DNA from: Paludibacteraceae bacterium
Lineage (GTDB): Bacteria; Bacteroidota; Bacteroidia; Bacteroidales; Paludibacteraceae
Assembly: GCA_024399965.1 (NCBI GenBank)
Contig: JAKSNJ010000011.1
Location: 1-56,380, forward strand
Direction: 5' to 3'
Length of the DNA stretch: 56,380 bases
Below are positions 17,972-46,050 of this stretch, piece by piece. The position numbers were made by a program, and so were the translations under genes. The stretch's first letter is position 1. The number at the start of each line of letters is the position of its first letter. Under the pieces are notes generated by a model. That model worked only from the letters and a program-made list of their open reading frames with translations. It made no database searches and was not told the origin of the DNA.

Positions 17972-17999
17972 CCGCGCATCGTGCATTGTCAACCGTCCA
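17972..17999 (-). repeat. 7-bp tandem repeat (family A) at the U32 start
   Basis: Four heptads in reverse orientation, related to the units TGCACGA and TTGACAA. It fills the 9-bp gap after asd and contributes the GTG start and first residues (HCQPST) of the U32 protein. Confidence 0.7.
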
Positions 18000-19270
18000 C
18001 CATAGAAATTATGGCCCCTGTGGGGTGCTGGGACTCTTTAGCAGCAGCCATTGAGGCCGGTGCCACTAGTGTCTATTTCGGCATTGAGCACCTGAATATG
18101 CGGGCGCGCTCATCAGCCAATTTCACCACAGACGATTTACGCAAGATTGTGAGCATTTGTCAACAGGCCAATGTGAAGACCTATTTGACCCTCAACACGG
18201 TCATGTACCCCGAAGACTTACCCCTGATGCGTGAGATTGTAGATACCGCCAAGGAGGTAGGACTAAGCGCCATCATTGCCAGCGACATTTCCGTACTGCA
18301 ATATGCTAACAGTCAGGGAGTTGAGGTGCATCTTTCTACCCAACTCAACATCGCCAACACGGAGGCGTTGCGTTTCTATGCGCAGTATGCAGATGTGGTC
18401 GTTTTGGCACGGGAGTTGAACATGACGCAGGTGGCATCTATTTACAAGGACATACAGGAGCAAGACATACGCGGTCCCAAGGGCGAACTCATTCGTATTG
18501 AGATGTTCTGCCATGGTGCCTTATGTATGGCAGTCAGCGGTAAGTGTTACTTGAGTTTGAACAACTTAGGAGCGTCCGCCAACCGCGGTGCGTGTATGCA
18601 GGTGTGCCGACGCGGATACATTGTCAAGGACAAAGAGTCTGACCTCGAATTGGAGGTAGATAATCAATATATTATGTCCCCCAAGGACCTGAAAACCATT
18701 GGTTTCCTCAATAAGATGCTTGATGCCGGAGTTCGCGTACTCAAGATAGAAGGACGTGCTCGCGGACCGGAATATGTCAAGATAGTGGTCGGGTGTTATA
18801 AAGAGGCCGTTGAGGCATGGCAGAACGGCGAATATAATCGGTTGACAATGGACAATGCACAATGCACGATGTCTATTGAAGATAAGATTGCTGATTGGAA
18901 CACACGCCTTGCACGTGTCTTTAATCGCGGTTTTTGGGACGGTTATTACCAAGGTCAGAAATTAGGCGAGTGGACGCACGAATACGGTTCGCAAGCCACA
19001 CGTAAAAAAGTGTATGCCGGCAAGTGTACCAACTTTTTCAGCAAGATAAGTGTGGCGGAGTTTATGTTAGAGGCGATACCGCAGATTACGGAAGGCGATG
19101 AACTGCTGATTACCGGCGAGACCACCGGTGCATACGAGGTGGTGGCACACGACTTGCACGACGAGCCCGGCAATCCCCAAACGACAGTCTATCAGGGACA
19201 CCTTTTTGCACTCAAGACTGACCGCCCCATTCGCCGAGGGGATAAGTTATTCCTCATGAAGTCGGAGTAA
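17981..19270 (+). CDS. U32-family peptidase-like protein (tRNA hydroxylation-type)
   Basis: 429 residues. The U32 signature is intact: EMFCHGALCMAVSGKCYLS, then NRGACMQVCRRGY with the cysteine set expected for an Fe-S-type site. In bacteria, relatives (TrhP/RlhA) take part in RNA 5-hydroxylation rather than proteolysis. Which one this is cannot be told from sequence. The family's N-terminal 'IEIMAPVG' is kept, which requires a start at the GTG at 17981. That GTG lies inside repeat family A; the next ATG (18011) would cut into the motif. A second family A array is in frame at residues ~288-297 (LTMDNAQCT). Confidence 0.88.
   Translation: MHCQPSTIEIMAPVGCWDSLAAAIEAGATSVYFGIEHLNMRARSSANFTTDDLRKIVSICQQANVKTYLTLNTVMYPEDLPLMREIVDTAKEVGLSAIIASDISVLQYANSQGVEVHLSTQLNIANTEALRFYAQYADVVVLARELNMTQVASIYKDIQEQDIRGPKGELIRIEMFCHGALCMAVSGKCYLSLNNLGASANRGACMQVCRRGYIVKDKESDLELEVDNQYIMSPKDLKTIGFLNKMLDAGVRVLKIEGRARGPEYVKIVVGCYKEAVEAWQNGEYNRLTMDNAQCTMSIEDKIADWNTRLARVFNRGFWDGYYQGQKLGEWTHEYGSQATRKKVYAGKCTNFFSKISVAEFMLEAIPQITEGDELLITGETTGAYEVVAHDLHDEPGNPQTTVYQGHLFALKTDRPIRRGDKLFLMKSE
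18842..18869 (+). repeat. 7-bp tandem repeat (family A) inside the U32 gene
   Basis: Four heptads: TTGACAA, TGGACAA, TGCACAA, TGCACGA. Read in frame as LTMDNAQCT without breaking the gene. Confidence 0.85.
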
Positions 19271-19316
19271 TAAAAAGCGTTATAACACCCAACTATCATT
19301 TTGTCACTTTGCGATA

Positions 19317-19360
19317 AACGACCAATAAACGAACGATGAACGAACGATGAACGAACGGTG
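19317..19360. repeat. 11-bp tandem repeat, 4 units (family D)
   Basis: One diverged unit (AACGACCAATA), two exact AACGAACGATG units and one AACGAACGGTG. The unit is the reverse complement type of the 10903-10946 array. It lies between the U32 gene and the ncRNA promoter. Confidence 0.8.
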
Positions 19361-19426
19361 CCACTTGGCATCGTTTTTTACGTTTTGTCCTAAAAAGTAG
19401 CAAATTGATAGCAAATAGTATTTTTA

Positions 19427-19458
19427 TTTGCATATTCCAAAAATTATTTGTAATTTTG
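19427..19458 (+). promoter_or_regulatory. Promoter of the ncRNA candidate
   Basis: TTTG (19427-19430, extended to TTTGCATAT), 20-bp spacer, TAATTTTG (19451-19458). It is one of the best promoter matches in the window, and no protein gene starts nearby. Transcription should begin at about 19465. Confidence 0.75.
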
Positions 19459-19464
19459 CACAAA

Positions 19465-19798
19465 ATTCACGCCGGAAGAGTGATTCCGGCAGCAGGTGGA
19501 AGTCCTGCAAAGACATGTTAATCGCGAGAAGCCGTGAGGTGAAGAACGCGAAAGAAAGCGTTTATTACGCTTCGAATCTTGGCTACTTTGAACTTAGGAA
19601 CTTTAGAGTGCAATCCAAGGCGAAGTAATGATGAATCGCTGTCTGTATGTATCGAATACATACGCAACGCCTTAGTATATCAAGGCGCGTGCGTGTGCAT
19701 ATATACATACTCGCAGGTTCTGAATTGTTCGTTTTGATTGTAAGGGCAATTCCTAAGGCCTAAAGTAGCAGGACGAGAAATTCGGACCTGCTTTTTTT
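19465..19798 (+). ncRNA. Structured non-coding RNA candidate, about 330 nt
   Basis: A strong promoter and an intrinsic terminator bracket ~330 nt with no plausible gene. The region holds several hairpins: GCCGGAA/TTCCGGC at the 5' end, GCAGG/CCTGC next to it, an AAAGCG/CGCTT-type stem near 19550-19580, and an extended imperfect stem around 19650-19720. I looked for RNase P RNA (CR-I GAGGAAAGTCC, CR-V ACAGAA), tmRNA ends, SRP RNA and a cobalamin riboswitch, and none fits. A 6S-like RNA or one of the Bacteroidales-specific RNA families is possible. Alternatively it is a long leader for the secreted-protein gene at 19879, although the terminator argues for a separate transcript. Confidence 0.6.
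19767..19798 (+). terminator. Terminator of the ncRNA candidate
   Basis: AGCAGG (19767-19772) pairs with CCTGCT (19787-19792), with an inner CGA/TCG pairing, followed by seven T residues. Confidence 0.8.
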
Positions 19799-19878
19799 GT
19801 GTCTTTATATAAACTAAAATACAACGGAGTATGCCCAAAATCCTTAACAGAGTAGGCAAAACTAAAATCATTATTTTT

Positions 19879-22083
19879 ATGAGAAAACTATTATTTATTT
19901 TGGCAGCCGTGTACTGCTTAGTCATGAACTCATGGGCAGATTGCCAACTGATTGGCAACGAGATTCCATCCGGTACGGGTGTTAAAGCCCGCTCCATTAT
20001 CAACATTCAGTACAATCAAACGACCCAAATCCTCTCGTTTGAGGACATCTACGAGCCATCCTTTACCGCGTATGAGCGAATGTATCAGGTCTATTTTTAT
20101 AAATACCAATCGGATTATGCTTTTTATAGGAATCCTTCCGGTGGTTATAATTCCGTTTTTTATGGCGCAGGTTGCGATGACGATGCTTTTATTCCCGGAA
20201 ACCCATCCAGCTCTGCTGAACATCCGTCGGCACATCGGTGGACATATCGTACTGTTAATAATAGTGCCGGTGGCACAATCCAGATTGATTTATCAACGGT
20301 TGTCTCGCAATTAGCCGCCTTGGGGTATAACCATGTGATGGTCGGTATATACCCTTCTTGTCGAATTTCTTCTTCTGCAGATTGGGTTTACTATTCCACC
20401 TATGGAGATCGGCACTCGTGGCTGATGAATACGGCACATTTTAAGATTATTCCATTGGTTGACCGCCGTATAGATGGTTTGGTAACCAAAGTGCATACGC
20501 CTACTGGGGTGATTGATAATACGGGTTGGGGGTCGCCTTTCGAGGCAGAGGAACATGTCTATCTTTGTGACGGTCAGGATACCGCCAATGTTCGCGCTAA
20601 CATTTCCCCCATAAGCAATGTAACGGGTCCTGTAACTTATATTTGGCAGAAGCGCACAGACGATGAAACGGCTTGGCACTATCAAAGCCAAGGCTCCTTT
20701 TCCAAAACTCAGTGGAATAATGCCGTCAGTAGCAGTACTGCATTGCAAGTCAACCGCAATTTCCGATGGTCGGCAGGCGATATGGAGCGTGTTACCTATT
20801 TCCGCCTGGCATTGGCGTATGATAACGATACGCTCTATTCCAATGAAATACAGATTGATGCCAAATTCCGCGTTAAAATAACAGGTCCTGTGGCTTGCAA
20901 ATTTGGCGATGAGGCTTGGAAGAATATAAATATAAAGGGTGCTTATCCTATATTTGATACATTGACGTATGAAGTGGACATGAATGATACCATTCGCCTA
21001 AAGCCATACAAAAGCAATTGGTCTTTCGCCGAAATGTATTGCTCTATCCCAGTACGCGGTATCATCACTACAGATTCCGAAGGCAATCCGTGCATTACGG
21101 ATTTTTGGCACAGTTGTTATACCGTTATACGTGGAGAAACACATTCCGTCAAACTGTATGTGGATGGTACGCTCTACCATTCATTTAACGAAGTGCCTTG
21201 CAGTTTTACCATTAAAGAATGTAATTATCCTGCCCCTGCTGACCCAACTAAATCAGGTGTCGATTTCCTGTATTGGCGTCCTCGAGACGGAAGTGGTACT
21301 GCCGGCTTGAGTTACATAACAAATCATATCGTTATTGGCGATGAAGAATGGGATGCTGTATTCAGCGATGAAAAATATGCTCTTTATGTAAAAGGTACAC
21401 AAGTGACCAGTAATAACAAGAACACTATTGCACCGGGAGTTACTTATAACTCGGAAAGAAAAGAACTCACCCTTACCAACGCCAATATCGTCTATGATGG
21501 GACGGAGGTGATAGACATATATCAAGACATTACGATTAACTGCATCGGCGAAAATACGGTGTATTGTACCAGTACCACGAATGGTTCCGCCATCGGGAAT
21601 GGTGTAGGGAAAACCACTATCACCGGCTCCGGAACATTATTGGCCAAGAGTGATGCTATGAGTGCTATTTATGGCGAGTATGATTTAACCATTTCTGACG
21701 GCTGCAAGGTTACGGCACAAAGTGCAAAGGGTTATGCAATTGCGATTGCAGGCGAACCGCTTACCATAGATAATGCCACTTTGATAGCCAAAGGCAACGG
21801 CAAAGAAGCTACGATTAATGGCTGCAGCGAATTGATTATGCTCAATGGGGTGTCTATCCGTTCTGCCCACACCTACGATGCCGCAACGCACAAGTTCCTT
21901 GATGCCGCAGGCAACGAAGCAAAGGACGACATCATTATTGGCGTAGCAGGCACAGGCACCGGCTTGGAGGAGTTGACGGTGGACAATGCACGATGCACGA
22001 TGAGAAAAATGATTATTGATAATCAACTTTATATTCTTCGTAACAATAAACTCTACAACGCCGCAGGCGGAAGAGTGAAATAA
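19879..22083 (+). CDS. Secreted protein with beta-helix-like module and short tail
   Basis: 734 residues from the ATG at 19879, where the signal peptide (MRKLLFILAAVYCLVMNSWA) begins; the open frame starts 48 bp earlier without one. Residues ~500-690 have short repeating strands (ITINCIGENTVYC, TITGSGTLLAKS, LTISDGCKVTA, LTIDNATLIAKG) that resemble calcium- or carbohydrate-binding right-handed beta-helix proteins (Cthe_2159-like). The shared tail (KMIIDNQLYILRNNKLYNAA) follows a GTGTGLEEL linker, and a family A repeat is inserted between linker and tail. It is 21 bp upstream of a paralogue ending in nearly the same tail. Likely a surface or secreted polysaccharide-interacting protein. Confidence 0.83.
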   Translation: MRKLLFILAAVYCLVMNSWADCQLIGNEIPSGTGVKARSIINIQYNQTTQILSFEDIYEPSFTAYERMYQVYFYKYQSDYAFYRNPSGGYNSVFYGAGCDDDAFIPGNPSSSAEHPSAHRWTYRTVNNSAGGTIQIDLSTVVSQLAALGYNHVMVGIYPSCRISSSADWVYYSTYGDRHSWLMNTAHFKIIPLVDRRIDGLVTKVHTPTGVIDNTGWGSPFEAEEHVYLCDGQDTANVRANISPISNVTGPVTYIWQKRTDDETAWHYQSQGSFSKTQWNNAVSSSTALQVNRNFRWSAGDMERVTYFRLALAYDNDTLYSNEIQIDAKFRVKITGPVACKFGDEAWKNINIKGAYPIFDTLTYEVDMNDTIRLKPYKSNWSFAEMYCSIPVRGIITTDSEGNPCITDFWHSCYTVIRGETHSVKLYVDGTLYHSFNEVPCSFTIKECNYPAPADPTKSGVDFLYWRPRDGSGTAGLSYITNHIVIGDEEWDAVFSDEKYALYVKGTQVTSNNKNTIAPGVTYNSERKELTLTNANIVYDGTEVIDIYQDITINCIGENTVYCTSTTNGSAIGNGVGKTTITGSGTLLAKSDAMSAIYGEYDLTISDGCKVTAQSAKGYAIAIAGEPLTIDNATLIAKGNGKEATINGCSELIMLNGVSIRSAHTYDAATHKFLDAAGNEAKDDIIIGVAGTGTGLEELTVDNARCTMRKMIIDNQLYILRNNKLYNAAGGRVK
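21973..22000 (+). repeat. 7-bp tandem repeat (family A) before the C-terminal tail
   Basis: Heptads TTGACGG, TGGACAA and two TGCACGA, translated LTVDNARCT. It lies exactly between the GTGTGLEE linker and the tail motif. Confidence 0.85.
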
Positions 22084-22104
22084 TCCAAATAAAATACAAC
22101 GATT

Positions 22105-25011
22105 ATGAGAAAAGTATTTATTATTCTCGCTTTGGCCCTGACAACGGTGGCCACAAGTTACGCTACAACCTATGGTATTTGGGTTGTCGGCAAGCAAGTA
22201 ACCTCTTACAACCAAAACGACATTTTGGGTGATGGAACCATCAGTTTTGACCCTGCTACCAGCACCATTACGATGCATGGTGGAGAGATTTATGCTACCT
22301 TCCAAAAGAACTCCAAGCATCAGTTCACCTACGATTGCGGTATTTTTATTCCTTACCAAAAGCAATCATCCTTTACGGAAGAAACAAGTGCTGAATATGA
22401 AGCGGATGTTTATTTGAAGAATGTTGTTTTTGACATTCACGGGGATAACTCGTTGATTAACGCTTGGGATGAGTCCAAGTATTCGTATGTACTTCATGAG
22501 GGTATTTTCTCTCGTGTTCCCACCGAGTTCAAGGGCCCCGGTTGTTTGCGTATTTACAATTTTAACAAGGCAGCCGTTCATGTTAAGGACGATGTAACCT
22601 TCACTTCCGGACGCTATTTCTTTGAGAATACTTTGCCGCACGATGTGGAAGAAGACGGTCATCCGTTGATTTATCAAGAGGGCGGAGACTATACGTTGAC
22701 TCTGGGCAATGCTTTCTTCCATTTGCTGCAAGACAATCGTTATACCAGTGCTATTTGGTTTAAGGGAAAAGTAAATAGTGAGAAGATGGCGGCTGTCGTG
22801 GATTTTGAAGGGTTTGAGTACAAGGATGTTACATTTGAGAACAGCCAATTGGTATCGCGCCAATCGGGTTATTTTAAACGACTGCATTCGGTGGATATTT
22901 ATCCCAAAAACTATAATGTAATCTTATTACAAGATGGTGCAACCGAGGCAACCTCGTCTTGGATTACTTATGACAATCACATGGATGTGAACAACGACGG
23001 AGGTAGTGTTAAGTATGACTTTTTGAATAACACTCTCTTCCTTGATCGTGCGGACATTCAATTAGGAAACAATATCCTTCAATCCTATGTGGACGATTTA
23101 ACTATCGCTTGCTACGGAAGAAATACCATTACCGGTAAGAACGAGACCTATTATACTTTGCGTTTCTCCTTCTTCCCCAATGTTAATTTCGTATCGGATG
23201 ATCGACTTTATCATGAGGGTTATATAAAAGGCGAGAAGAAACGGACATATCATCCTACGGGAAGTGATTCCCTCAGCGTTCTGGCTCCCAAAGCTTTGTC
23301 GGTCAATAATATGCATGTTTCTGATATGGTTTTGTTCTGCAAGGGTAATCAGGATGCTTTCTCTGCTGTAGGCACCGTGAGGGCAGATGTGAAGCAAGAT
23401 AATGGTACCAATGCTACTTTTGGTAAAGACATCTATTATCCGGTTAAAATAAACAACGAGCAATTGAGTTTCAACACGATGGCTAAATACACCAAACAAT
23501 ACGGGGACAGTTTCCGATGTGATGGCCACACATTAAACATCCATCATGCCAAGATGTATGGCGCAAGGATTGAATTTTTGAAAAGCAGCACCCCGTTAAA
23601 ATTCTCTTGCGGTGGTGATTGCCAAATCGGTGAATTATATACGGAAACGGATTTAACCATCATAAACAACGGCAATTTAGTGTGCATGGGTGGGCAGGGA
23701 TTTGTTGTGAATAACCATGCTACCTTGACGATTATGGGTACCGGTTCTTACGATATCACCGGTGGACTACGCGCCATAAGCAGTGATACCAAAGATGGCA
23801 ATGTGGTTATTAATCAAACCTCTCTCACCCTCACTAGCGCCCAACAGCTGAAGGGTGTGGGTACTGTGCAGAATATTCAATCCCTGTTGTTGAATAAAGC
23901 CGCTATCACCTCTCCTTCCGGAGCAAGTTTTATTAGCGCCCAACATGCTATTTGCGTAGGTGGTACACCTACGGTGGAGAATGTGGTCATTTCTCCCGTA
24001 GAAGGAAAGAATCCAATATCCTCAGTTATCGTTTCTACCGATAAGAAGGCCGTATGTACAGGAACAGAAAGCGCCACTGTTTCTGCTTTCATTCAGGGAA
24101 GCGGTACGCTCCCATTAAGGGCTCTTTGGCAACGTCAGGACCAAGGTGGGAAATGGCAAGATATAGGTTCCTCTATCAGTATAACGGCTGGAGATGCATT
24201 GAACGGCACCACGATTACCCAAACATACAGTCCTAAATCCGATGCTACCCCCATCCGCAAATATCGTGTGATTGTTCGCTCTTTTGACCCCGGAAAAGTA
24301 TGCGACACGGTTTATTCCAATGAAGTAGAAATTGCTGCCAAGTATAAAGTAGCTCTTTTTGACGGCGGATTCAGTTATTGGAAAGCAGGAGAACAACCTA
24401 CAGAACTGGCGTGGGGACAAGATAGCGAAATCTATGTTGCGACGGATGAGACATATTATTTCGCTCTTGGGGATGAGTGTATGAGTTCTTTGTTAGGAAA
24501 CTCTTTTATCAGTCTTGTTGATTCGGGGAACGGAGTATATCGTTTAACCGGTGTGCAAGACAGTTATGGCTCCATTAGTTCATACCGATTCAAACTTTCC
24601 GTTTACTTCTATTCTTCGTTGGAGAAATCAGCGGCTACCTTATTGGACAGCCACTATGCTGGGGCAATGGATCATCTCGAATGTGGTGAGAGTATCAACG
24701 ATAAAGGTTGGACTATCCCTGTGCCACCCGCTAAAGCAACAGGATGGCTGGGTTGGCTAGAGGAGAAATCCGGTATATTATACACCTCTGAGCAATTGCT
24801 GTCGATGCCTTTGACAGCAATCGAGGATGAGCAGGACATTGTCTTCTGCGCCTTGTATGAAGGGGATATAGTTGAAGACGATCCGACAAGTGATTTATGG
24901 CAAATTGTCAGTCCGGCAGAGTGGATGACAGGCAGAAAGGTACTGCTCAATAATCAACTCTATATTCTTCATGGCAATAAACTCTATAACGCCGCAGGAG
25001 TGGAGTTATAG
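22105..25011 (+). CDS. Large secreted protein with beta-helix-like repeats and short tail
   Basis: 968 residues. Signal peptide MRKVFIILALALTTVATSYA. The first mature segment (YGIWVVGKQVTSYNQNDI) resembles 'YALYVKGTQVTSNNKNTI' in the upstream protein, so the two share a module. The middle region has short beta-strand repeats (LTIACYGRNTITGKN, LTIINNGNLVCMG, LTIMGTGSYDITGG). Residues ~640-740 look like an Ig-like or PKD-like domain. The tail is KVLLNNQLYILHGNKLYNAA. It is the second gene of an operon with 19879-22083, followed by repeats and a hairpin terminator. No catalytic motif identified. Confidence 0.83.
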   Translation: MRKVFIILALALTTVATSYATTYGIWVVGKQVTSYNQNDILGDGTISFDPATSTITMHGGEIYATFQKNSKHQFTYDCGIFIPYQKQSSFTEETSAEYEADVYLKNVVFDIHGDNSLINAWDESKYSYVLHEGIFSRVPTEFKGPGCLRIYNFNKAAVHVKDDVTFTSGRYFFENTLPHDVEEDGHPLIYQEGGDYTLTLGNAFFHLLQDNRYTSAIWFKGKVNSEKMAAVVDFEGFEYKDVTFENSQLVSRQSGYFKRLHSVDIYPKNYNVILLQDGATEATSSWITYDNHMDVNNDGGSVKYDFLNNTLFLDRADIQLGNNILQSYVDDLTIACYGRNTITGKNETYYTLRFSFFPNVNFVSDDRLYHEGYIKGEKKRTYHPTGSDSLSVLAPKALSVNNMHVSDMVLFCKGNQDAFSAVGTVRADVKQDNGTNATFGKDIYYPVKINNEQLSFNTMAKYTKQYGDSFRCDGHTLNIHHAKMYGARIEFLKSSTPLKFSCGGDCQIGELYTETDLTIINNGNLVCMGGQGFVVNNHATLTIMGTGSYDITGGLRAISSDTKDGNVVINQTSLTLTSAQQLKGVGTVQNIQSLLLNKAAITSPSGASFISAQHAICVGGTPTVENVVISPVEGKNPISSVIVSTDKKAVCTGTESATVSAFIQGSGTLPLRALWQRQDQGGKWQDIGSSISITAGDALNGTTITQTYSPKSDATPIRKYRVIVRSFDPGKVCDTVYSNEVEIAAKYKVALFDGGFSYWKAGEQPTELAWGQDSEIYVATDETYYFALGDECMSSLLGNSFISLVDSGNGVYRLTGVQDSYGSISSYRFKLSVYFYSSLEKSAATLLDSHYAGAMDHLECGESINDKGWTIPVPPAKATGWLGWLEEKSGILYTSEQLLSMPLTAIEDEQDIVFCALYEGDIVEDDPTSDLWQIVSPAEWMTGRKVLLNNQLYILHGNKLYNAAGVEL

Positions 25012-25092: not shown

Positions 25093-25103
25093 AAATGATG
25101 AAG

Positions 25104-25132
25104 GAGCCGAAGTGCAGAACGCATTTCGGCTC
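25104..25132 (+). terminator. Hairpin downstream of the secreted-protein operon
   Basis: GAGCCGAA (25104-25111) pairs perfectly with TTCGGCTC (25125-25132), followed by an AT-rich stretch lacking a true T-run. It is probably the terminator of the 19879-25011 operon. Confidence 0.55.
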
Positions 25133-25336: not shown

Positions 25337-25360
25337 AAAAGGGTCTAAACTAAAAAAAAA

Positions 25361-26662: not shown

Positions 26663-27669
26663 TGGAATTTAGTGCAGGACAAATAGCTGCCATGTTGGGT
26701 GGCGAGATAGTGGGCGATGCCAATCGCATGGTCAATAATGTAGCCGGATTAGAAACCTCCAAAGAGGGCGATTTATGTTTCTTAGGCGACGAAAAATATC
26801 TGCCCTACTTGGCAACTACCAAAGCATCTGTCGTACTGCTGACCAAGACGCTTTATCAGTTGACGATGGACAATGCACAATGCACGATTATCTTGGTTGA
26901 GAATGCCCGTGGCGCGATGGCACAACTGCTGCAAGCCGTAGCCGAAGTGCTCAACCCCAAGCGTCGTGGCATAGAGCAACCTGCTTTTATCGCCGAGGGT
27001 GTGCAAGTGCCCGAAGATGCGTACGTGGGAGCTATGGCTTACATCGGAAAGAACGTGCGTTTGGGCAAGGGCGTGCAGATATATCCGCAAGTTTATTTGG
27101 GGGACAATGTCGTCATAGGCGACAATACCATTCTTTACCCGGGCGTAAAGGTCTATTACAACTGCCGTGTAGGTGCCAATTGTATCCTGCACGCGGGTGT
27201 AGTCATCGGTGGTGACGGTTTTGGTTTTGAGCCCGATGCACAGGGCGTTTACCATAAAGTGCCACAAATCGGTATTGCCGTCATTGAGGACGATGTAGAG
27301 ATAGGTGCCAACACCACCGTAGATCGCGCTATGATGGGCGAAACACGTGTAAAAAAGAACACCAAAATAGATAACCTCGTGCAAGTAGCACATAACGTGG
27401 TCGTGGGCGAATCCACCGTACTATGCGCCCAAGTGGGCATAGCCGGTTCCACCACCGTCGGCAACCACTGTATGCTGACAGGGCAAGTGGGAGTAGCCGG
27501 ACATATCGAAATAACCGACAACTGCGTCTTTGGTGGACAAACAGGCGTAACGGGCAGCATCAAAAAGCCCGGCATGTACCTCGGCACACCTGCCATGGAC
27601 GCCAACCTCTGCCGCCGCGTCTATGCCGCTATGCGACACCTGCCGGAAATGTATAGGAAGTTAGTTTAG
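26662..27669 (+). CDS. lpxD: UDP-3-O-acylglucosamine N-acyltransferase LpxD
   Basis: 335 residues from the ATG at 26662; the longer frame starting with TTG at 26644 is repeat DNA. It adds the N-linked 3-hydroxyacyl chain in lipid A synthesis. The N-terminal uridine-binding domain (MEFSAGQIAAMLGGEIVGDA) is followed by a left-handed beta-helix of hexapeptide repeats, with the catalytic His region HAGVVIGGDGFGF. A family A repeat is in frame at residues ~67-76 (LTMDNAQCT) in the first domain. The TAG stop falls inside a GTTTAGA unit of family C. Next comes lpxC, 42 bp downstream. Confidence 0.95.
   Translation: MEFSAGQIAAMLGGEIVGDANRMVNNVAGLETSKEGDLCFLGDEKYLPYLATTKASVVLLTKTLYQLTMDNAQCTIILVENARGAMAQLLQAVAEVLNPKRRGIEQPAFIAEGVQVPEDAYVGAMAYIGKNVRLGKGVQIYPQVYLGDNVVIGDNTILYPGVKVYYNCRVGANCILHAGVVIGGDGFGFEPDAQGVYHKVPQIGIAVIEDDVEIGANTTVDRAMMGETRVKKNTKIDNLVQVAHNVVVGESTVLCAQVGIAGSTTVGNHCMLTGQVGVAGHIEITDNCVFGGQTGVTGSIKKPGMYLGTPAMDANLCRRVYAAMRHLPEMYRKLV
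26860..26887 (+). repeat. 7-bp tandem repeat (family A) inside lpxD
   Basis: TTGACGA, TGGACAA, TGCACAA, TGCACGA, in frame as LTMDNAQCT. The frame is the same as in the U32 gene and the 19879 protein. Confidence 0.85.
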
Positions 27670-38647: not shown

Positions 38648-38678
38648 ACCCCCTGCCCCCTCAGAAAGGGGAAGGAAG

Positions 38679-38706
38679 TTAACAGTGGACAATGCACAAT
38701 GCGCGG
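38679..38706. repeat. 7-bp tandem repeat (family A), intergenic
   Basis: TTAACAG, TGGACAA, TGCACAA, TGCGCGG. It is the only family A copy in the window wholly outside coding sequence. Confidence 0.8.
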
Positions 38707-38854: not shown

Positions 38855-39262
38855 TTATTGTGCCTTAACTATATACGTATAAATGGTGTGAAACTTCTTA
38901 TAGTATCTGTCCACTTGCTCCGTAAATTCCCTTAGCGACCAATCAGTATCAATTATTTCTGTTGAACCATACAATAAAGCACCATCGGAAGCAACTATCT
39001 CAAATTTGGAGAAGGTTCCGCTTGGACAACAACAATGATATACATACTCATTGGGAAGATTGAGCGTTATTGTTTTACCTGCCGGAATAGTCACAGTTCT
39101 CGGATAAGCCATTCCATCGTTGGTCTGCTCCATTAGGAGTACAAAGGACACATATACATCTTCTTTCAGTTGATTGTCCACCTCATATTGAAACACGCTG
39201 TCTGTATGCGTACAAGCAGCAAATAAGAACGTCATCCAAAGGACAGGTATTAGTTTTTTCAT
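38855..39262 (-). CDS. Small lipoprotein of unknown function
   Basis: 135 residues. The signal peptide has a lipobox at LFAAC (Cys about residue 17). The mature part is a small beta domain (FQYEVDNQLKEDVYVSF, TVTIPAGKTITLNL, FEIVASDGALLYG) resembling immunoglobulin-like lipoproteins of Bacteroidales. Monocistronic with promoter 39319-39350. No homologue recognised. Confidence 0.75.
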   Translation of the reverse strand: MKKLIPVLWMTFLFAACTHTDSVFQYEVDNQLKEDVYVSFVLLMEQTNDGMAYPRTVTIPAGKTITLNLPNEYVYHCCCPSGTFSKFEIVASDGALLYGSTEIIDTDWSLREFTEQVDRYYKKFHTIYTYIVKAQ

Positions 39263-39318
39263 AATCGTCTTCTGACTTTTTTCGGTTATATTCCCGTTGT
39301 GCTAGTCAAATTCTATTG

Positions 39319-39350
39319 CAAAGGTACACAAAAAATTTGAAATATGCAAA
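39319..39350 (-). promoter_or_regulatory. Promoter of the small lipoprotein gene
   Basis: Minus strand: TTTG (39347-39350), 20-bp spacer, TACCTTTG (39319-39326). Nearly identical in sequence to 38580-38611, including the spacer. Confidence 0.72.
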
Positions 39351-39358
39351 CTTATTGA

Positions 39359-39393
39359 ATGGAAAATTAAGAATGGAGAATGGAGAATGGAGA
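39359..39393. repeat. 7-bp tandem repeat (family B) in a divergent promoter region
   Basis: AATGGAA, AATTAAG and three AATGGAG. It fills the space between the back-to-back promoters 39319-39350 (minus) and 39398-39429 (plus). Confidence 0.85.
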
Positions 39394-39397
39394 TTTA

Positions 39398-39429
39398 TTT
39401 GCATATATCAAAAAAAAAGTGTATTTTTG
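39398..39429 (+). promoter_or_regulatory. Promoter of the reductase/glutamate synthase fusion
   Basis: TTTG (39398-39401, TTTGCATAT), 20-bp spacer, TATTTTTG (39422-39429), 38 bp before the ATG at 39467. Confidence 0.72.
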
Positions 39430-39466
39430 CAATCGCAAAAATGTGCACTATAAAACAATAAGACAA

Positions 39467-41719
39467 ATGAATACCATTGTTTCAAAACGTTTTTTCTCGC
39501 CTAACGTGGCAGAAATAGAGGTGGAGGCACCTTTTATTGCACGTAGTCGAAAAGCCGGACACTTCGTGATAGTACGAGTAGATAAACAGTCCGAACGTAT
39601 GCCCCTGACCATCAGTGCCGCTAATACGGAAAAAGGGACCATCACACTGGTGGTACAACGTATAGGCGTGTCTTCATCTAAACTATGCGCCATGGAGGCA
39701 GGAGACCAATTGCAAGACGTAGTCGGTCCGCTGGGCAAAGCCACACATATTGCACACTTTGGAACAGTCGTTTGCGCCTGTGGCGGCGTAGGTGCTGCAC
39801 CTATGTTGCCCATTGCCGAGGGACTGAAACGCGCCGGCAACCGCGTGATTACCGTACTCGCTGCTCGCAACAAAGACCTCATCATCCTTAAAGACGAATT
39901 GGCACAATGGTCCGACGAAGTTATCGTAATGACCGACGACGGCAGTATGGGTAAGCAGGGGGTAGTGACCGTAGGCGTAGAGGAGGTTATTCAGCGCGAA
40001 CAGGTAGATAAATGTATCACTATCGGTCCTGCCATTATGATGAAATTTGTGGCACTGACCACCGCCAAATACAACATCCCCACCGATGCCTCACTCAACA
40101 CGATTATGGTAGATGGAACAGGTATGTGCGGCGCTTGCCGTGTGAGCGTAGGTGGCGAAACGAAGTTCGTGTGCGTAGATGGTCCTGAATTTGATGCACA
40201 TCAGGTGAATTGGGACGAGATGATGAGCCGTCTGCGCAGTTACAAGCCCGAAGAAGCAGAGGCGATGGAGAGATACGAGGACGGCATTAAACGTGGTGCG
40301 ATGACCGCCAAAGAGCGTGTGGTTATTCCGCGTGTCAAGATGAACGAGTTGGCACCCGAGGTGCGCGTCAAGAGTTTGCGTGCCGAAGTCAATCAAGGAC
40401 TGACTATGGAGCAAGCCATCACCGAGGCCCACCGTTGTCTGAACTGCAAGAACCCCACCTGCGTACAGGGATGCCCCGTCAACATACAGATTCCTGCCTT
40501 CATCAAGCAGGTCGAAAAAGGCAATATCGACGCAGCAGCCGATGTAATCAAACAGAGCAGTACATTGCCCGCCGTATGCGGACGCGTCTGCCCACAGGAG
40601 AAACAGTGCGAAGCACAATGTATTCACCAAAAAATGGGACACGAACCGGTGGCTATCGGCTATTTGGAACGGTTTGTTGCTGACAATAGCGTTGTTAGTT
40701 CAAAGGACGGCAGCAGAGCTGCCTACAGTTTAGAGGACGCGCCAAAGGCGCTACAGAAAATAGCCGTAGTGGGGAGTGGTCCTGCAGGATTGGCCTTTGC
40801 CGGAGATATGGCTAAATACGGCTATGCCGTGACCGTATTCGAGGCCCTGCACGAGATAGGCGGCGTACTCAAATACGGCATACCCGAGTTCCGTCTGCCT
40901 AACCGCATCGTAGATAAAGAGATAGAGGGCTTGCGCCAATTGGGCGTTACCTTCCAAACAGATACCATCATCGGCAAAACGCTCAGCATAGACGACCTGA
41001 AAGAGCAAGGTTTTGCTGCCATCTTCGTAGGTTCGGGCGCGGGTTTGCCACGTTTTATGAACATCCCGGGTGAGAACCTGAACGGCGTGATGAGTTGCAA
41101 CGAGTACCTGACCCGTGTCAACCTAATGGACGCCAGCAACACGATGACAGACACGCCTCTTATGTTAGGCAAGAACGTGGCAGTGGTCGGTGGCGGCAAT
41201 ACAGCCATGGACGCTGTGCGCACCGCTAAACGTCTTGGTGCAGAACGGGCGATGATTATCTATCGCCGCAGCGAAGACGAGATGCCGGCACGTATCGAGG
41301 AAGTGCGTCATGCCAAAGAAGAGGGCATCGAGTTCCTGACCCTACACAACCCCATTGAGTACCACGCAGACGAGAACGGTCGTGTCAAAGAGGCCGTGCT
41401 ACAAGTGATGGCATTAGGCGAGCCCGACGAGTCCGGTCGCCGCAGTCCAGTGGCAGTAGAAGGCAAGACGATTACCCTACCCGTTGATTTAGTGATTGTG
41501 AGTGTAGGCGTATCGCCCAATCCGCTTATTCCGAACAGTGTCAGCGGTTTGGACATCAGTCGCAAAGGCACGATAGTGGTGAACGAGGACACGATGCAAA
41601 GCACGATTCCCACCCTGTTTGCCGGAGGCGACATCGTACGCGGAGGAGCCACCGTCATTCTCGCCATGAGCGACGGACGCAAAGCCGCCAAAGCTATGCA
41701 CGAGTACCTGAGTCACTAA
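39467..41719 (+). CDS. Fused ferredoxin-NADP reductase-type / NADPH glutamate synthase small-chain protein (NfnAB-like)
   Basis: 750 residues from the ATG at 39467; the ORF from 39380 begins inside a repeat and crosses the promoter. Residues 1-~280 are like the DHODH-B/NfnA electron-transfer subunit, with FAD/NAD motifs and a 2Fe-2S set (GTGMCGACRVSVGGETKFVC). Residues ~285-750 are like GltD/NfnB: Fe-S cysteines (CLNCKNPTCVQGCP, CGRVCPQEKQCEAQC), FAD motif (VVGSGPAGLAFAGDM) and NADP motif (VVGGGNTAMDAV). Such fusions are usual in Bacteroidetes; transhydrogenase-type bifurcation or glutamate synthesis are both possible. A family C double hairpin encodes residues ~413-430 in the linker between the Fe-S and FAD parts. 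The 3' end overlaps the convergent exosortase gene by 26 bp. Confidence 0.93.
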   Translation: MNTIVSKRFFSPNVAEIEVEAPFIARSRKAGHFVIVRVDKQSERMPLTISAANTEKGTITLVVQRIGVSSSKLCAMEAGDQLQDVVGPLGKATHIAHFGTVVCACGGVGAAPMLPIAEGLKRAGNRVITVLAARNKDLIILKDELAQWSDEVIVMTDDGSMGKQGVVTVGVEEVIQREQVDKCITIGPAIMMKFVALTTAKYNIPTDASLNTIMVDGTGMCGACRVSVGGETKFVCVDGPEFDAHQVNWDEMMSRLRSYKPEEAEAMERYEDGIKRGAMTAKERVVIPRVKMNELAPEVRVKSLRAEVNQGLTMEQAITEAHRCLNCKNPTCVQGCPVNIQIPAFIKQVEKGNIDAAADVIKQSSTLPAVCGRVCPQEKQCEAQCIHQKMGHEPVAIGYLERFVADNSVVSSKDGSRAAYSLEDAPKALQKIAVVGSGPAGLAFAGDMAKYGYAVTVFEALHEIGGVLKYGIPEFRLPNRIVDKEIEGLRQLGVTFQTDTIIGKTLSIDDLKEQGFAAIFVGSGAGLPRFMNIPGENLNGVMSCNEYLTRVNLMDASNTMTDTPLMLGKNVAVVGGGNTAMDAVRTAKRLGAERAMIIYRRSEDEMPARIEEVRHAKEEGIEFLTLHNPIEYHADENGRVKEAVLQVMALGEPDESGRRSPVAVEGKTITLPVDLVIVSVGVSPNPLIPNSVSGLDISRKGTIVVNEDTMQSTIPTLFAGGDIVRGGATVILAMSDGRKAAKAMHEYLSH
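40705..40756 (+). repeat. Double variable-stem hairpin (family C) inside the fusion gene
   Basis: GGAC, then GGCAGC-AGA-GCTGCC (40709-40723), then TACAGTTTAGAGGAC, then GCGCC-AAA-GGCGC (40739-40751) and TACA. Both stems are perfect and unrelated to each other. Translated in frame as an Ala/Ser/Lys-rich linker. Confidence 0.85.
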
Positions 41720-42305
41720 CGCCACTCAAGTGGTTGACCCACACGAGCCACATCAGGAACATCAAGCCGTAAAAAGCGTATTTGAAAACATAGGTGTGCA
41801 TCACTTCGAATAATTCGGGGTGATGCTCTATTATTAAAGATATAGCCGCAATGCGGACAATGTTAATGCCATAGATCAGCAGCCAGCCCAGCGGTATAAA
41901 CCACAACTTGCGAAGCCATTTGCCACGTGCAGCCGCAATCAGGCACAGCCAAATAAAACTCTGCTTGACAGGCGTACAACTCCACACGATATGCGAGCCG
42001 TTACCCGAATCAAAGTACAGCCGTGTACCGTTTAAATGCACCGTATCGCGCACCAACGCCACCAAACCATAGGCGGCCTGTGCCACCTGCTGCGACATCC
42101 AGTCAAAGAAAGGTGTCAGCACAATGCCCAGCCACGTCACGTCACCACGCCCCAACTCGTCGCCCTGTACGGTCAACTTCCAAAAACCGTTGGCAAGCAA
42201 CAGCGCAACCACAAAAAGGAGAATATCCTTATAAGGGTTAACGATGGACAATGGTGCTTCCGAGCACTCCGATGAAGGCACAATATCAGATGGTCGTTTG
42301 GGCAT
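41694..42305 (-). CDS. Exosortase/archaeosortase-family membrane protein
   Basis: 203 residues from the ATG at 42305, which overlaps the tsaD end by 20 bp; an earlier start at 42368 lies deep inside tsaD. Multi-pass membrane protein. The presumed catalytic residues are in order: Cys in IVWSCTPVKQSFIW, Arg in YGINIVRIAAISLI, His in MHTYVFKYAFYGLMF. The family cleaves C-terminal sorting signals in other bacteria. No protein here has a typical target (motif, membrane span, basic end). Residues near the N-terminus (PLSIVNPY) come from a two-unit family A repeat. Last gene of the long minus-strand run. Confidence 0.8.
   Translation of the reverse strand: MPKRPSDIVPSSECSEAPLSIVNPYKDILLFVVALLLANGFWKLTVQGDELGRGDVTWLGIVLTPFFDWMSQQVAQAAYGLVALVRDTVHLNGTRLYFDSGNGSHIVWSCTPVKQSFIWLCLIAAARGKWLRKLWFIPLGWLLIYGINIVRIAAISLIIEHHPELFEVMHTYVFKYAFYGLMFLMWLVWVNHLSGVSDSGTRA
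42238..42251 (-). repeat. Short 7-bp repeat (family A) in the exosortase gene
   Basis: Two units only (TTAACGA, TGGACAA), encoding LSIVN before the first membrane span. A weak copy that is convincing mainly because of the others. Confidence 0.5.
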
Positions 42306-43389
42306 AAGGAGCGGCGTCAATAGGACAAAAATCGTGGTCCAAGAACTTATAGTATCCGGCTTGCGCAATCATAGCAGCATTGTCGGTAGTGAAACTAAAG
42401 GGCGGTATAAAGACTTCGTAGGTTGACGGCTGACGATGCACAATGCACGATGACGGTTGGGAGAGTTGCATCATGGCGTCACGCAATCCAGAATTGGCAC
42501 TTACACCACCTGCAACGGCAATACGGGTAATACCGAGGTCCTTGGCGGCTTTCTTGACTTTCTTGAGCAGAATATCGATAATGGTCGTTTGCAGGGAGGC
42601 ACACAGGTCTTCACGCAGGTTGGGTATCTGTTCCGCCAGCGCGTCCACCGTGTCCACCTGATGCTCCTTCATCAAGTCACGCAAGGTATAGAGGAAGGAC
42701 GTTTTCAGCCCAGAGAACGAGTAGTCATAGCCCGCTATATTGGGTTTGGCAAAGGGGAAAGCAGTGGGATTGCCCTGTTTGGCGAGTTTATCTATCCACG
42801 GACCGCCCGGGTAGGGCAAGCCCATCACTTTGGCACATTTATCAAAGGCCTCACCGGCGGCATCGTCAATCGTTTGTCCGATGATTTGCATCCGGTTGTA
42901 TGCCTCGACTTTGACTATCTGCGAATTACCACCACTCACCAACAAACAGAGGAACGGCAACTGAGGGTGCTTGATGTCTATGCCTTGCAGTTTGGGATTG
43001 GTGGCAATGTATTCAGGCGACGGTTCCACAAAATGTGCCATGATATGTCCCTGCAGGTGGTTAACCTCCACCAAGGGAATATGCAACGACAAGGCGAGTC
43101 CTTTGGCAAAACTCGTGCCTACCAACAGAGAACCCAACAAACCCGGTCCGCGCGTAAAGGCAATAGCGGACAAGTCCTTCTTGTCCACACCGGCGTGCTT
43201 GAGGGCAGCATCCACCACCGGCATAATATTCTGCTGATGCGCACGCGATGCCAATTCCGGCACCACACCGCCAAACTCCTCGTGTACCTTCTGCGAGGCA
43301 ATGACATTGCTCATGAGCAAGCCATTCTTAATGACCGCAGCCGAGGTGTCATCGCAACTTGATTCGATTGCTAAAATGATTGTATCCAT
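42286..43389 (-). CDS. tsaD: tRNA threonylcarbamoyladenosine transferase TsaD
   Basis: 367 residues, slightly longer than usual. It transfers the threonylcarbamoyl group to A37 of ANN-decoding tRNAs. The iron-binding histidines are in HQQNI (about residue 52) and HLQGH (about 114). SGGNSQIV, the GEAFDKCAKVMGLPYPGGP segment and AVAGGVSANSGLR are present. Between AVAGGVSANSGLR and the conserved FIPPFSFTTDNAAMIA, residues ~311-322 (PSSCIVHRQPST) are family A repeat sequence where other TsaD proteins have only a short loop. The ATG directly follows the uvrA stop with no gap. Confidence 0.95.
   Translation of the reverse strand: MDTIILAIESSCDDTSAAVIKNGLLMSNVIASQKVHEEFGGVVPELASRAHQQNIMPVVDAALKHAGVDKKDLSAIAFTRGPGLLGSLLVGTSFAKGLALSLHIPLVEVNHLQGHIMAHFVEPSPEYIATNPKLQGIDIKHPQLPFLCLLVSGGNSQIVKVEAYNRMQIIGQTIDDAAGEAFDKCAKVMGLPYPGGPWIDKLAKQGNPTAFPFAKPNIAGYDYSFSGLKTSFLYTLRDLMKEHQVDTVDALAEQIPNLREDLCASLQTTIIDILLKKVKKAAKDLGITRIAVAGGVSANSGLRDAMMQLSQPSSCIVHRQPSTYEVFIPPFSFTTDNAAMIAQAGYYKFLDHDFCPIDAAPYAQTTI
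42423..42457 (-). repeat. 7-bp tandem repeat (family A) inside tsaD
   Basis: Five units: TTGACGG, CTGACGA, TGCACAA, TGCACGA, TGACGGT. Read on the minus strand as PSSCIVHRQPST. Confidence 0.85.
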
Positions 43390-46050
43390 TTATATGAATT
43401 GTCCTGTTAGGGAACGTTTATTTTTTCGTATATCATCCAATGTGCCCACGGCTACTACTTCACCGCCGCCCCGTCCACCTTCGGGACCTAAATCAATAAT
43501 CCAATCGGCGGCCTTAATCACGTCGGGGTTGTGCTCAATCACAATGACCGTATTCCCCCTATCCGTGAGGCGACGCAACACGCCCAGCAAGATACGTATG
43601 TCCTCAAAATGCAGTCCTGTGGTGGGTTCGTCTAATATATACACCGTCTTGCCGGTAGAAGGTTTGGACAGTTCGGCAGCCAATTTCATACGTTGGCTCT
43701 CGCCTCCGCTCAAGGTGGTAGAGGGCTGTCCCAGTTTGATATAACCCAAGCCAACGTCCTGAATGGTCTTGATTTTCTTTAAGATAGCAGGTTGGCTCTC
43801 AAAGAACTCGACGGCTTGATTGATGGTCATATCCAGTACATCGGCTATCGTCTTGCCCTTGAAACGCACTTCGAGTGTCTCCTTCTGATAACGCGACCCG
43901 CCACATACCTCGCACGGCACATAGACATCCGGCAGGAAGTGCATTCGAATAGTCTTGTACCCGTTACCTGAACATTCCTCACACCGTCCTCCGGGCGTAT
44001 TAAAGGAGAAACGCCCCGACCGCCACGCACGAATACGCGCCTCCGGCAAGCGGGCAAACAGGTCACGTATGTCCGTGAAGACATTGGTATAAGTGGCAGG
44101 ATTGCTACGAGGCGTGCGCCCAATAGGCGACTGGTCCACAGCGATGACCTTGTCCACATATTCAAGTCCCTCCAAACTATCGTAGGGCAGAGGTGCCTGC
44201 AAACTATGGTGCAACCGCTGCCGCAATAGCGGATAGAGGGTTTGATTGATAAGCGTCGATTTACCACTACCGCTGACACCCGTTACACAAATCATCTTGC
44301 CAAGCGGAAAATCAACGGTGATATTCTTGAGGTTATTGCCTTTACACCCTGTTAGGGTTAATTGAGAATTGAAAGTTGAGAATTGAGAGACACATTCTCC
44401 TTTTTCCATTCTCCTTTCTCCATTCTCCATTCTCCATTCTCCATTTACCAAGTATTGGGCCGTCAGGGTATCGGCTTTGAGCAATTGGGCGGGCGTACCA
44501 GCAAAGACTACCTCACCACCCAAACGACCTGCCTTAGGACCTATGTCCACCACATAATCAGCTTGACGCATCATCTGCTCATCGTGCTCCACTACCAGTA
44601 TCGTATTACCCATATCACGCAGTTCCTTCAAACTATCTATCAGTCGTTGATTATCACGCTGATGCAGTCCGATAGAGGGTTCGTCCAATATATACAGCAC
44701 ATTGACCAAACGCGAACCAATCTGCGTCGCCAAACGAATACGCTGACTCTCACCCCCACTCAAACTATCGGAGGAACGATTAAGATTGAGGTAATCCAAA
44801 CCAACTGCCACCATAAAGCGCAACCGACCGCAAATCTCCTTTATAATGGGTTCGGCGATAGCTTTTTCGGTTGACGATGGACAATGCTCAATGCACGATG
44901 ATTGTAAGAAGTCCAACAGGGCATCAATGTCCATATTCGCCAATTCAGATATATTCTTGTCGGCAATGCGGTAACTCAGTGCCTCGCGATTAAGCCGTTG
45001 CCCACCACACTCGGGGCACACCTGCCACTCCTGTTCCTCGTCCTCGTTGTCGCTATCGCTTGCGTTATCGTTAGCCGCAGCTACCAAGCGCTCAAACCAG
45101 TTATCCTCATCGTGGACAATCTCTTCAATAGAGGAATCGGTGAGTGGGGGAGTTGATGAATTGGTAACCTTTCCCAATCCTTTGCAACAAGGACACCAAC
45201 CACTCGGGCTATTAAACGAGAACGTATGCGGAGCAGCTTTCTGATAACTCAAACCCGTTTCAGCATCCATCAAATTGCGTGAGAAATAACGCGGTGTAAT
45301 CTCGTCATTTGCCAAAATCATCATTAAGCCGTCACCCACGGTCATCGCTTTATTGACGGACTCAAAGAGGCGTTTCTCATCAAGTGTGATTTGGTTGTCG
45401 TCCACCTTTAGACGGTCCACCACCAGTTCGATGAAGTGATTTTGGTAGCGGTCCACTTTCATACCTTGACAGAGTTCTTTCACCTCACCATCTACGCGCA
45501 CATACATGTAGCCCTTTTTGCGGACGGAGTCAAACAGTTCGCGATAGTGTCCCTTACGGCCATGTACGAGCGGCGCCAAGAGAAGAATTTTCTTGCCAAG
45601 ATAGTCCTGCTCAATACGCTGCACTATCTCCTCATCGGTCATCTGCACCATCTCCTTGCCTGTCTTGTAAGAATACACCTTGCCGGCGCGCGCAAAGAGA
45701 AGACGCAGATAATCATATACTTCCGTAATCGTTCCCACCGTGGAACGCGGATTACGATTGGTCGTTTTTTGGTCAATAGAGATAACGGGACTTAAACCGG
45801 AAATCTGATCTACATCGGGGCGCTGCATCGGTCCCAAATAGGCACGTGCATAGCCGGGGAAAGTCTCCATATAACGCCGTTGTCCTTCAGCAAAAATGGT
45901 ATCAAACGCCAACGAACTCTTACCGCTACCACTCAAACCGGTAATAACGGTCAACTTGCCTTGCGGCATACTGACCGATATATTCTTCAGGTTGTGCACA
46001 CGGGCACCTACTACTTCTATGGTTGACGACTGACGAGGCACGATGCACAA
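43390..46050 (-). CDS. uvrA: Excinuclease ABC subunit A
   Basis: 886 residues. Damage-recognition ATPase of nucleotide excision repair. Two ABC modules: GLSGSGKSS (about residue 38) and GVSGSGKST (about 595), signatures LSGGESQRIRLA and LSGGESQRMKLA. The UvrB-binding region is present (VHGRKGHYRELFDSVRKKGY). Zinc pairs CPECGGQR and CEECSGNG/CEVCGGSR are seen, but the first pair before 'FSFNSPSGWCPCC' is missing, as in some second UvrA copies. No ATG precedes IEVVGARVHNL: the start must be TTG 46050 or GTG 46041, both inside a family A array. A second family A array is at residues ~384-393, and inverted family B arrays form residues ~534-563 between the halves. Confidence 0.93.
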   Translation of the reverse strand: MCIVPRQSSTIEVVGARVHNLKNISVSMPQGKLTVITGLSGSGKSSLAFDTIFAEGQRRYMETFPGYARAYLGPMQRPDVDQISGLSPVISIDQKTTNRNPRSTVGTITEVYDYLRLLFARAGKVYSYKTGKEMVQMTDEEIVQRIEQDYLGKKILLLAPLVHGRKGHYRELFDSVRKKGYMYVRVDGEVKELCQGMKVDRYQNHFIELVVDRLKVDDNQITLDEKRLFESVNKAMTVGDGLMMILANDEITPRYFSRNLMDAETGLSYQKAAPHTFSFNSPSGWCPCCKGLGKVTNSSTPPLTDSSIEEIVHDEDNWFERLVAAANDNASDSDNEDEEQEWQVCPECGGQRLNREALSYRIADKNISELANMDIDALLDFLQSSCIEHCPSSTEKAIAEPIIKEICGRLRFMVAVGLDYLNLNRSSDSLSGGESQRIRLATQIGSRLVNVLYILDEPSIGLHQRDNQRLIDSLKELRDMGNTILVVEHDEQMMRQADYVVDIGPKAGRLGGEVVFAGTPAQLLKADTLTAQYLVNGEWRMENGERRMEKGECVSQFSTFNSQLTLTGCKGNNLKNITVDFPLGKMICVTGVSGSGKSTLINQTLYPLLRQRLHHSLQAPLPYDSLEGLEYVDKVIAVDQSPIGRTPRSNPATYTNVFTDIRDLFARLPEARIRAWRSGRFSFNTPGGRCEECSGNGYKTIRMHFLPDVYVPCEVCGGSRYQKETLEVRFKGKTIADVLDMTINQAVEFFESQPAILKKIKTIQDVGLGYIKLGQPSTTLSGGESQRMKLAAELSKPSTGKTVYILDEPTTGLHFEDIRILLGVLRRLTDRGNTVIVIEHNPDVIKAADWIIDLGPEGGRGGGEVVAVGTLDDIRKNKRSLTGQFI
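44360..44449. repeat. Facing 7-bp arrays (family B) in the uvrA linker
   Basis: Four AATTGAR-like units (44360-44387) are followed, after 6 bp, by eight ATTCTCC-like units (44394-44449), which are the same family in opposite orientation. The arrays can pair GAGAAT with ATTCTC. Translated on the minus strand as a ~30-residue charged segment (NGEWRMENGERRMEKGE...). Confidence 0.9.
44871..44898 (-). repeat. 7-bp tandem repeat (family A) inside uvrA
   Basis: TTGACGA, TGGACAA, TGCTCAA, TGCACGA, in frame as SSCIEHCPSST on the minus strand, after the second zinc motif region. Confidence 0.85.
46023..46050 (-). repeat. 7-bp tandem repeat (family A) at the uvrA start
   Basis: TTGACGA, CTGACGA, GGCACGA, TGCACAA. 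It begins 3 bp after the pepO stop and encodes the first residues of UvrA (CIVPRQSST), including every possible start codon. Confidence 0.85.

Follow-up and report, generated by a model that had tools for sequence, protein, structure and literature searches.

Heptamer cassettes in frame in housekeeping genes of a Paludibacteraceae bacterium and their possible spread by short-patch copying

The short tandemly repeated repetitive (STRR) sequences of cyanobacteria are heptameric repeats. Simple heptamers are also known as GGGAATC in Xanthomonas and GGGGA(C/T)T in Nostoc; in two xanthomonads 7-11% of the repeats overlap open reading frames (ORFs), only 68% are intergenic in a Nostoc strain, and simple repeats are cited as suppressed in the middle of bacterial coding regions (PMC4692102, excerpt). 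TAACTGA direct repeats occur in Beggiatoaceae, cyanobacteria, and five Bacteroidetes with some sets in ORFs (PMC4679880, excerpt), and the palindromic elements of Rickettsia are selfish palindromes lying in frame in genes (PMC2229807, excerpt). Here we describe 7-bp repeats of a Paludibacteraceae bacterium (assembly GCA_024399965.1), starting from positions 1 to 56,380 of contig JAKSNJ010000011.1. This stretch of 56,380 nt is called the window. The original prediction for it was of nine arrays of one repeat, family A, with units such as TGGACAA, TGCACAA and TGCACGA, eight of them touching coding sequence. It took the heptamer arrays of cyanobacteria to be intergenic, which the intragenic cases above correct (PMC4692102, PMC4679880, excerpts). 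Its statement that no named Bacteroidales element of this kind is known agrees with our finding none in the open-access literature.

We searched the window for family A with the pattern TGNACRATGNACRA, allowing at most one mismatch. There are 20 matches versus 1.65 expected, and none of 100 shuffles reached 20. Merged, the matches give the nine predicted family-A sites, at 17979 (- strand), 18842, 21980, 26860, 38686, 42238, 42437, 44871, and 46037. The rest comprise 11-bp repeats at 19330 and 10908 plus a lone match at 7961. Period-7 runs with a score of at least 10 number nine in the window, including a G-rich run at 38-74, versus 0.0 in Markov sequence. The source genome (G000; 1.66 Mb, 83% complete, 44 contigs, the window being contig 3) has 94 exact two-unit family-A matches versus 2 for the reversed pattern. 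Across 72 genomes of the same genus, the count ranges from 0 to 71 (G063) with many at 0-3; other G numbers denote related genomes and L numbers extracted loci. Tandem 7-bp units are thus present beyond chance in the window and the whole genome, as they are among the runs of G017 described below. Among the matches listed, LpxD places the genome nearest, of named relatives, to Candidatus Colicola and further metagenome-assembled genomes (MAGs) of Paludibacteraceae; the closest come from horse faeces and others from ruminant guts.

The DNA around all 94 genome matches was examined and 67 distinct sites with an exact match were retained. A few two-unit sites among them may have matched by chance, given the 2 genome matches of the reversed pattern. 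The commonest unit order is TTGACGG, TTGACAA or TGGACAA, followed by one or more TGCACAA and then TGCACGA. When units are compared in pairs, TTGAC/TGGAC stands 5' of TGCAC in 186 of 187 cases; with the units shuffled 1000 times the mean was 93 and the maximum 120. Independent slippage would not yield a fixed unit order at loci without relationship to each other. Each array is thus a copy of a single dispersed cassette, about 30 bp long, which speaks against an origin by local slippage. The predicted "7-bp tandem repeat" therefore holds for the heptamer units, whereas the plain tandem gives way to a fixed-order compound. Folding of three array sequences was not significant against shuffles (z -0.2, -1.1, -1.2), and the lack of a significant fold ruled out a palindrome or hairpin element. 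Neither does the cassette have the form of a palindromic stem-loop of 105-146 bp with terminal inverted repeats. A phage origin was dropped after the 23-base core, the one query tried, gave 0 exact matches in viral contigs.

Of the 67 sites, 41 are located in Pfam-supported ORFs, 20 or more residues from the ends. One of these, thyA (L096, 2705), was later removed, as relatives have stops at that position and the site is actually upstream of the gene. The remaining 26 comprise three in long ORFs without a Pfam match and 23 at ORF edges, in short ORFs or intergenic. Family A is therefore not mainly intergenic (41/67 genic) as STRR and TAACTGA repeats are, though period-7 arrays prefer noncoding DNA. 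The Pfam-matched hosts, housekeeping genes among them, include U32, LpxD, TsaD, a MutY-like glycosylase, a RecQ-like helicase, ThrRS, DapB, RuvA, Asp/Glu racemase, DXS, TatD, polyprenyl synthetase, PheT, ArgRS, GcvP, FecCD, RibD, DHFR, Mur ligase, SurE, and AroB, with UvrA added through an extra one-mismatch site. The in-frame residence in conserved protein-coding genes that had been predicted, a feature of the Rickettsia elements, is thus found genome-wide. By motif labels that the analyst assigned, sense copies are of the VDNAQCT type in 24 of 29 cases and of another type in five, as TGA triplets close the other frames, and 9 of 12 antisense copies are of the CIVH(C/R)Q type. The peptides originally quoted for the forward and reverse copies are correct.

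To compare the sites with relatives, we used orthologues from G017, G051, G139, and G144. They were available for 26 coding sites and one noncoding site, and at 22 of the coding sites the loop is plain in one relative or more. Net length change was tallied by the analyst against one such relative per site, G017 where it qualified and otherwise G051. It is at most +3 residues at 12 sites, about half, +4 to +7 at five, and +9 to +20 at five. The core units at the 12 small-change sites span 21-28 nt. Judged from these alignments, the cassette often appears to replace a host loop with the reading frame kept (12 of 22 comparable sites). The alignments also confirm that the array residues are absent from orthologues without an array, and the picture of an array inside a host gene has to be extended: it is present in frame, but it often replaces host sequence, beyond mere insertion. 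At the L079 site, beside a histidine-kinase-type ATPase domain, there is no length change versus G017 and G144. TsaD has gained nine residues versus all four relatives and versus the two best-matching solved TsaD sequences among those listed. At L001 (1487), a relative without the array already holds the bases GCACGATG that end the cassette. Among the four other coding sites, the DapB and L076 arrays are common to both relatives compared. The TatD array is common to G139; G051 has another array there (score 10) and G017 a weaker one (7). The fourth site is SurE, where G017 carries a different array. By the analyst's tally one or more relatives share the array at 8 of the 26 coding sites (including LpxD, ThrRS, RuvA, TatD, and DapB), and none of those compared does at the other 18. 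Short in-frame segments in or beside arrays have the appearance of nested events: PPVPLSKGE in G000 dapB, LTPRSLT in G139 U32, and one in the G139 orthologue of L079 (loci L063 992, L339, and L349).

G017 and G051 are sister species whose orthologous loci are mostly about 87-99% identical, typically about 93%. Both flanks were found in the sister for 40 distinct period-7 sites, 19 of which are unchanged. At the changed coding sites (ORF of at least 150 aa), all eight length differences are multiples of three (48, 30, 0, 45, 21, 21, 27, and 6 nt); two of the eight share one ORF and flank identity is 78 to 98.5%. Among changed noncoding sites this holds for only 1 of 13, a site with zero length change (Fisher p 4.4e-5). 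For all periods the counts are 20/20 coding versus 1/17 noncoding, with duplicates incompletely removed and true protein repeats included. Coding changes are under selection for frame. The expectation that a change of one 7-bp unit would frameshift the host is met by this constraint (8/8 versus 1/13), but the coding changes are mostly replacements of a whole patch and not of single units. In the surE loop, with flanks 98% identical, G051 has GCTCAAC units and G017 CACCTGT units, the length differing by 27 nt, and G000 has a family-A array. Swaps of this kind between close species are recent. In this between-species comparison no target duplication is visible by eye at the LpxD and SurE differences. 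Several noncoding arrays of the sisters differ by 7n (14, 14, 14, and 28 nt), the third also switching family. Period-7 arrays of G017 satisfy the coding criterion in 23 of 51 cases versus 447 of 552 random positions, and are therefore depleted in genes, not targeted to them.

In the window a family-A array at 26857..26887 (+) lies in the LpxD N-terminal domain at residues about 67-76, a segment predicted to be mostly coil. In an AlphaFold model (mean pLDDT 81, pTM 0.55) a helix covers residues 62-65 and a strand 75-79, and residues 66-74 form the coil that joins them. We collected 110 loci, the best 30 plus the best 80 of 185 in overlapping sets, giving 87 distinct genes from the genus and nearest relatives. 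Arrays are present in 23 of the 87 within loop residues 60-84, with period 7 in 15, period 11 in five, and period 9 in three. No segment centred outside residues 55-85 scores as an array in the 87 genes. At least 10 different heptamer sequences were counted by eye in the loop, so that one loop has been occupied repeatedly by different families. Array presence changes at least 15 times on a loop-masked LpxD tree, a quick tree with 33 of 84 inner branches weak and gain and loss not separated. Between G017 and G051 the lpxD loop differs and the rest hardly does.

Family A is one of many heptamer families, along with 8-, 9-, and 11-mers, to be found in the same loops. G017 has 55 period-7 runs in 660 kb, while periods 6, 8, 9, 10, 11, and 12 have 10, 13, 8, 1, 15, and 11; a Markov control has no runs at periods 6-12. 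With a score of at least 8, the position of the family-A array is taken in a relative by another array, of 7- or 8-bp units, at 8 of 26 coding sites (analyst tally). At that score 20 of 73 windows on the loops, including shared family-A copies, hold an array versus 43 of 1122 elsewhere in the same genes. G139 (L309-L357) has the 8-bp arrays CACCGATT and CACCAACT in loops where G000 holds the 7-bp cassette.

We also asked whether carriers of four LpxD heptamer families hold the same family elsewhere, counting two-unit matches on both strands of 18 genomes. TGCACRA has 72, 49, and 26 in three carriers versus 0-8 in the 15 others. ACCAATC has 57 and 31 in two carriers and up to 33 in others, ATTCAGN has 13 in its carrier and up to 32 in others, and GTCGAAA has 17 in its carrier and up to 111 in others. 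All seven carriers of the four families hold their family elsewhere in the genome (at least 13 matches). Family B, with GAATTGA/GAATGGA units, was searched for across the order and matched once or more in 120 of 198 genomes. Its abundance is patchy, as only G000 (57), G260 (51), G217 (26), and G202 (22) exceed 20 and the count is 0 in the remaining two genera of the Paludibacteraceae. Distant members of the order have heptamer bursts of their own, such as TGAACAATGGACAA-type repeats in G088 (49 matches) and the AGTTAAR-type repeats in G241 (252) and G198 (86) that the reversed control pattern revealed.

The arrays are probably the outcome of continuing, untargeted copying of patches from resident arrays, with the survivors filtered by selection. 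Short patches of about 20-60 nt would be written from resident tandem arrays to other places in the genome, often replacing the prior sequence. Genic copies would persist only where the frame is kept, no stop is introduced, and the loop is tolerant, and the same loops would be colonised repeatedly by whichever repeat family resides in the genome. The depletion of arrays in coding sequence is as expected of untargeted writing followed by selection. The molecular step would most likely be microhomology-mediated template switching at the replication fork or, alternatively, short-patch illegitimate recombination involving a single-stranded DNA copy of another array, and a dedicated enzyme would not be needed. 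We infer the copying step, its molecular nature, and the replacement in one step. We found no description of short-patch double illegitimate recombination in the open-access literature. More tentatively, and with somewhat less than even confidence, we suggest a standing process of loop rewriting in which arrays are both donors and receiving hot spots for ectopic patch copying, so that, over the time in which species diverge, surface loops of essential proteins would be overwritten and would change from one repeat family to another.

Several observations weigh against untargeted patch copying. Five of the 22 sites resemble near-full insertions, and replacement could be two steps, an insertion and then a deletion. 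L001 (1487) is the only junction with clear pre-existing homology, and microhomology lacks statistical support. Coding arrays are in sense in 29 cases versus 12 antisense of 41 (p 0.012, thyA being among the 12). This sense excess, seen although sense copies meet more stops, is not predicted by untargeted writing without selection at the protein level. A genome rich in a family may lack an LpxD copy, as does G135 with 111 GTCGAAA matches, and ordinary recombination may exchange loop alleles and so inflate the event counts.

Arrays could instead have grown in place by local slippage from chance seeds, as ordinary microsatellites. Period 7 is the commonest short period in G017 (55 runs versus 1-15 for periods 6 and 8-12), and several noncoding arrays change by 7n between the sisters, as slippage would have it. 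The same unit order recurs at unrelated loci (186/187), however, family A is abundant in some members of the genus and near-absent in many others, and the coding changes are mostly not multiples of 21, several exchanging whole families. The fixed unit order speaks against slippage as the source of dispersal, and we consider it unlikely as the general explanation; it is likely for changes of unit number inside noncoding arrays. There is a small chance that a dedicated mobile element is responsible, moved by an enzyme and similar to the Rickettsia elements. It would fit a dispersed cassette of about 30 bp that lies in frame in genes with lineage-specific abundance, and the apparent nested insertions into arrays in G139 and G000. 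It would not fit the absence of significant folding and of long inverted ends, the lack of a target duplication visible by eye where LpxD and SurE differ, the many unrelated families with only their period in common, or the small net length change at 12 of 22 sites.

Selection might also keep the arrays as functional motifs for DNA binding, regulation or a protein surface, given that 8 of 26 coding sites are common to at least one relative and that arrays also occur at gene starts. As families differ at fixed sites between related species, function is quite improbable as the main cause; 18 of 26 sites are unshared and arrays are depleted in coding sequence. An artefact of assembly or binning has to be considered too, the named relatives being metagenome assemblies and the evidence consisting of assembled sequence. 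With the frame preserved at 8 of 8 coding changes and an identical LpxD array recurring in two separately deposited MAGs (JAKSNH and JAGHTR records, the reads possibly not independent), we think this extremely unlikely. The UvrA, TsaD, and LpxD ORFs are also intact. Untargeted copying of patches from resident arrays is the account we prefer.

Within the window, five family-A sites are interior to ORFs, in U32 (18842), the 19831 ORF (21980), LpxD (26860), TsaD (42437), and UvrA (44871). The predicted eight coding arrays are made up of these five and one weak exosortase copy; the other two, at 17979 and 46037, only span gene starts, the exact start codon of each gene being uncertain. The array at 17972..17996 (-), between the aspartate-semialdehyde dehydrogenase stop codon (Pfam) and the U32 gene, contains a GTG in the U32 frame, with an in-frame ATG downstream at 18011. 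At the uvrA start the array at 46030..46056 (+) is immediately 3' of the upstream gene's stop codon and has the sole in-frame TTG/GTG codons ahead of the conserved GARVHN motif. The arrays at 17972-18011 and 46030-46056, each just after an upstream stop codon, are possible sources of the GTG/TTG codons at which U32 and uvrA start. The earliest possible ORF start codon likewise falls within an array in L065, L074, and L078.

The array at 18836..18871 (+) within the U32 gene (Pfam) reads RLTMDNAQCTM. It is absent from G017 and G144 (+9 aa) and apparently common to G139, where it has a nested 7-residue insert. Close to the C-terminus of the 19831 ORF, for which no Pfam or NCBIfam family matched, the array at 21974..22002 (+) reads LTVDNARCTM. 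The array at 38676..38706 (+) is noncoding and 5' of a sodium:neurotransmitter symporter gene. At 42228..42256 (+), a weak two-unit copy with one mismatch covers about residues 37-47 of the exosortase ORF (NCBIfam TIGR04178, 57.8 bits, cut-off 23) and is joined to a GGTGCTTCCGAGCACTCCGAT hairpin cassette. Antisense arrays read SSCIVHRQPST in tsaD (42424..42452, +) and SSCIEHCPSST inside uvrA (44868..44898, +), the latter adding three residues versus G017 and versus G051. Also inside uvrA, family-B arrays at 44360..44445 (no strand assigned) encode the linker NGEWRMENGERRMEKGECVSQFSTFNSQL, which is variable across the genus; other species have different repeat-like sequences in the same linker.

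The GGTGCTTCCGAGCACTCCGAT-type hairpin is a second cassette that at times adjoins the 3' end of an array and can be co-translated (GASEHSD). It was seen beside arrays at 42228-42251 in the window, in L006, L024, and L068, and in the G017/G051 orthologues of L076. Tandem 11-bp arrays lie at 10871-10943 and 19312-19357 (CATCGTTCGTC, CGATAAACGAA). A family-B array at 39370 is flanked by a 36-nt imperfect inverted repeat, 75% complementary (39315-39433). The G-rich, almost homopolymeric run at 36-74, near the contig start, is possibly a sequencing artefact.

The genus consists of uncultured animal-gut bacteria, and in it repeats appear to have entered many housekeeping proteins, time after time and along parallel lines. 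The arrays would show in nature which loop replacements are tolerated and would keep the traces of short-patch copying visible. How heptamers disperse can now be tested, since differences between close species fall at defined sites whose flanks are almost identical. Some loops of such MAG proteins may derive from repeats, and motif and alignment methods can be misled by them. If loop rewriting takes place, proteins would acquire changes of several residues in frame by a route distinct from point mutation, ordinary indels, and transposition.

We found no account in the open-access literature of heptamer cassettes that take the place of loops in housekeeping proteins, or of different families at one site. 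Short-patch double illegitimate recombination or template switching would place copies of short segments at ectopic sites, with a few tens of bases replaced; to our knowledge neither is known to act on one repeat class. Like family A, the Rickettsia palindromic elements are dispersed and in frame in conserved protein genes, where they are apparently tolerated. They are stem-loops of 105-146 bp with terminal inverted repeats, whereas family A is a non-palindromic cassette of about 30 bp built of 7-bp units, one of many families, and often replaces host codons. The TAACTGA repeats share with our arrays the heptamer direct repeat and the lack of an evident mobility mechanism, with other heptamers nearby in a few genomes; unlike the arrays here they are mostly intergenic and often just 5' of start codons. 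The Xanthomonas and Nostoc heptamers and the STRR sequences likewise have 7-bp units, genome-wide dispersal, variability between close species, and some copies in ORFs. They are mainly intergenic and under-represented in coding regions. The arrays described here differ in that many lie inside domains of housekeeping proteins, family A is a compound of fixed order, and different families are found at one site.

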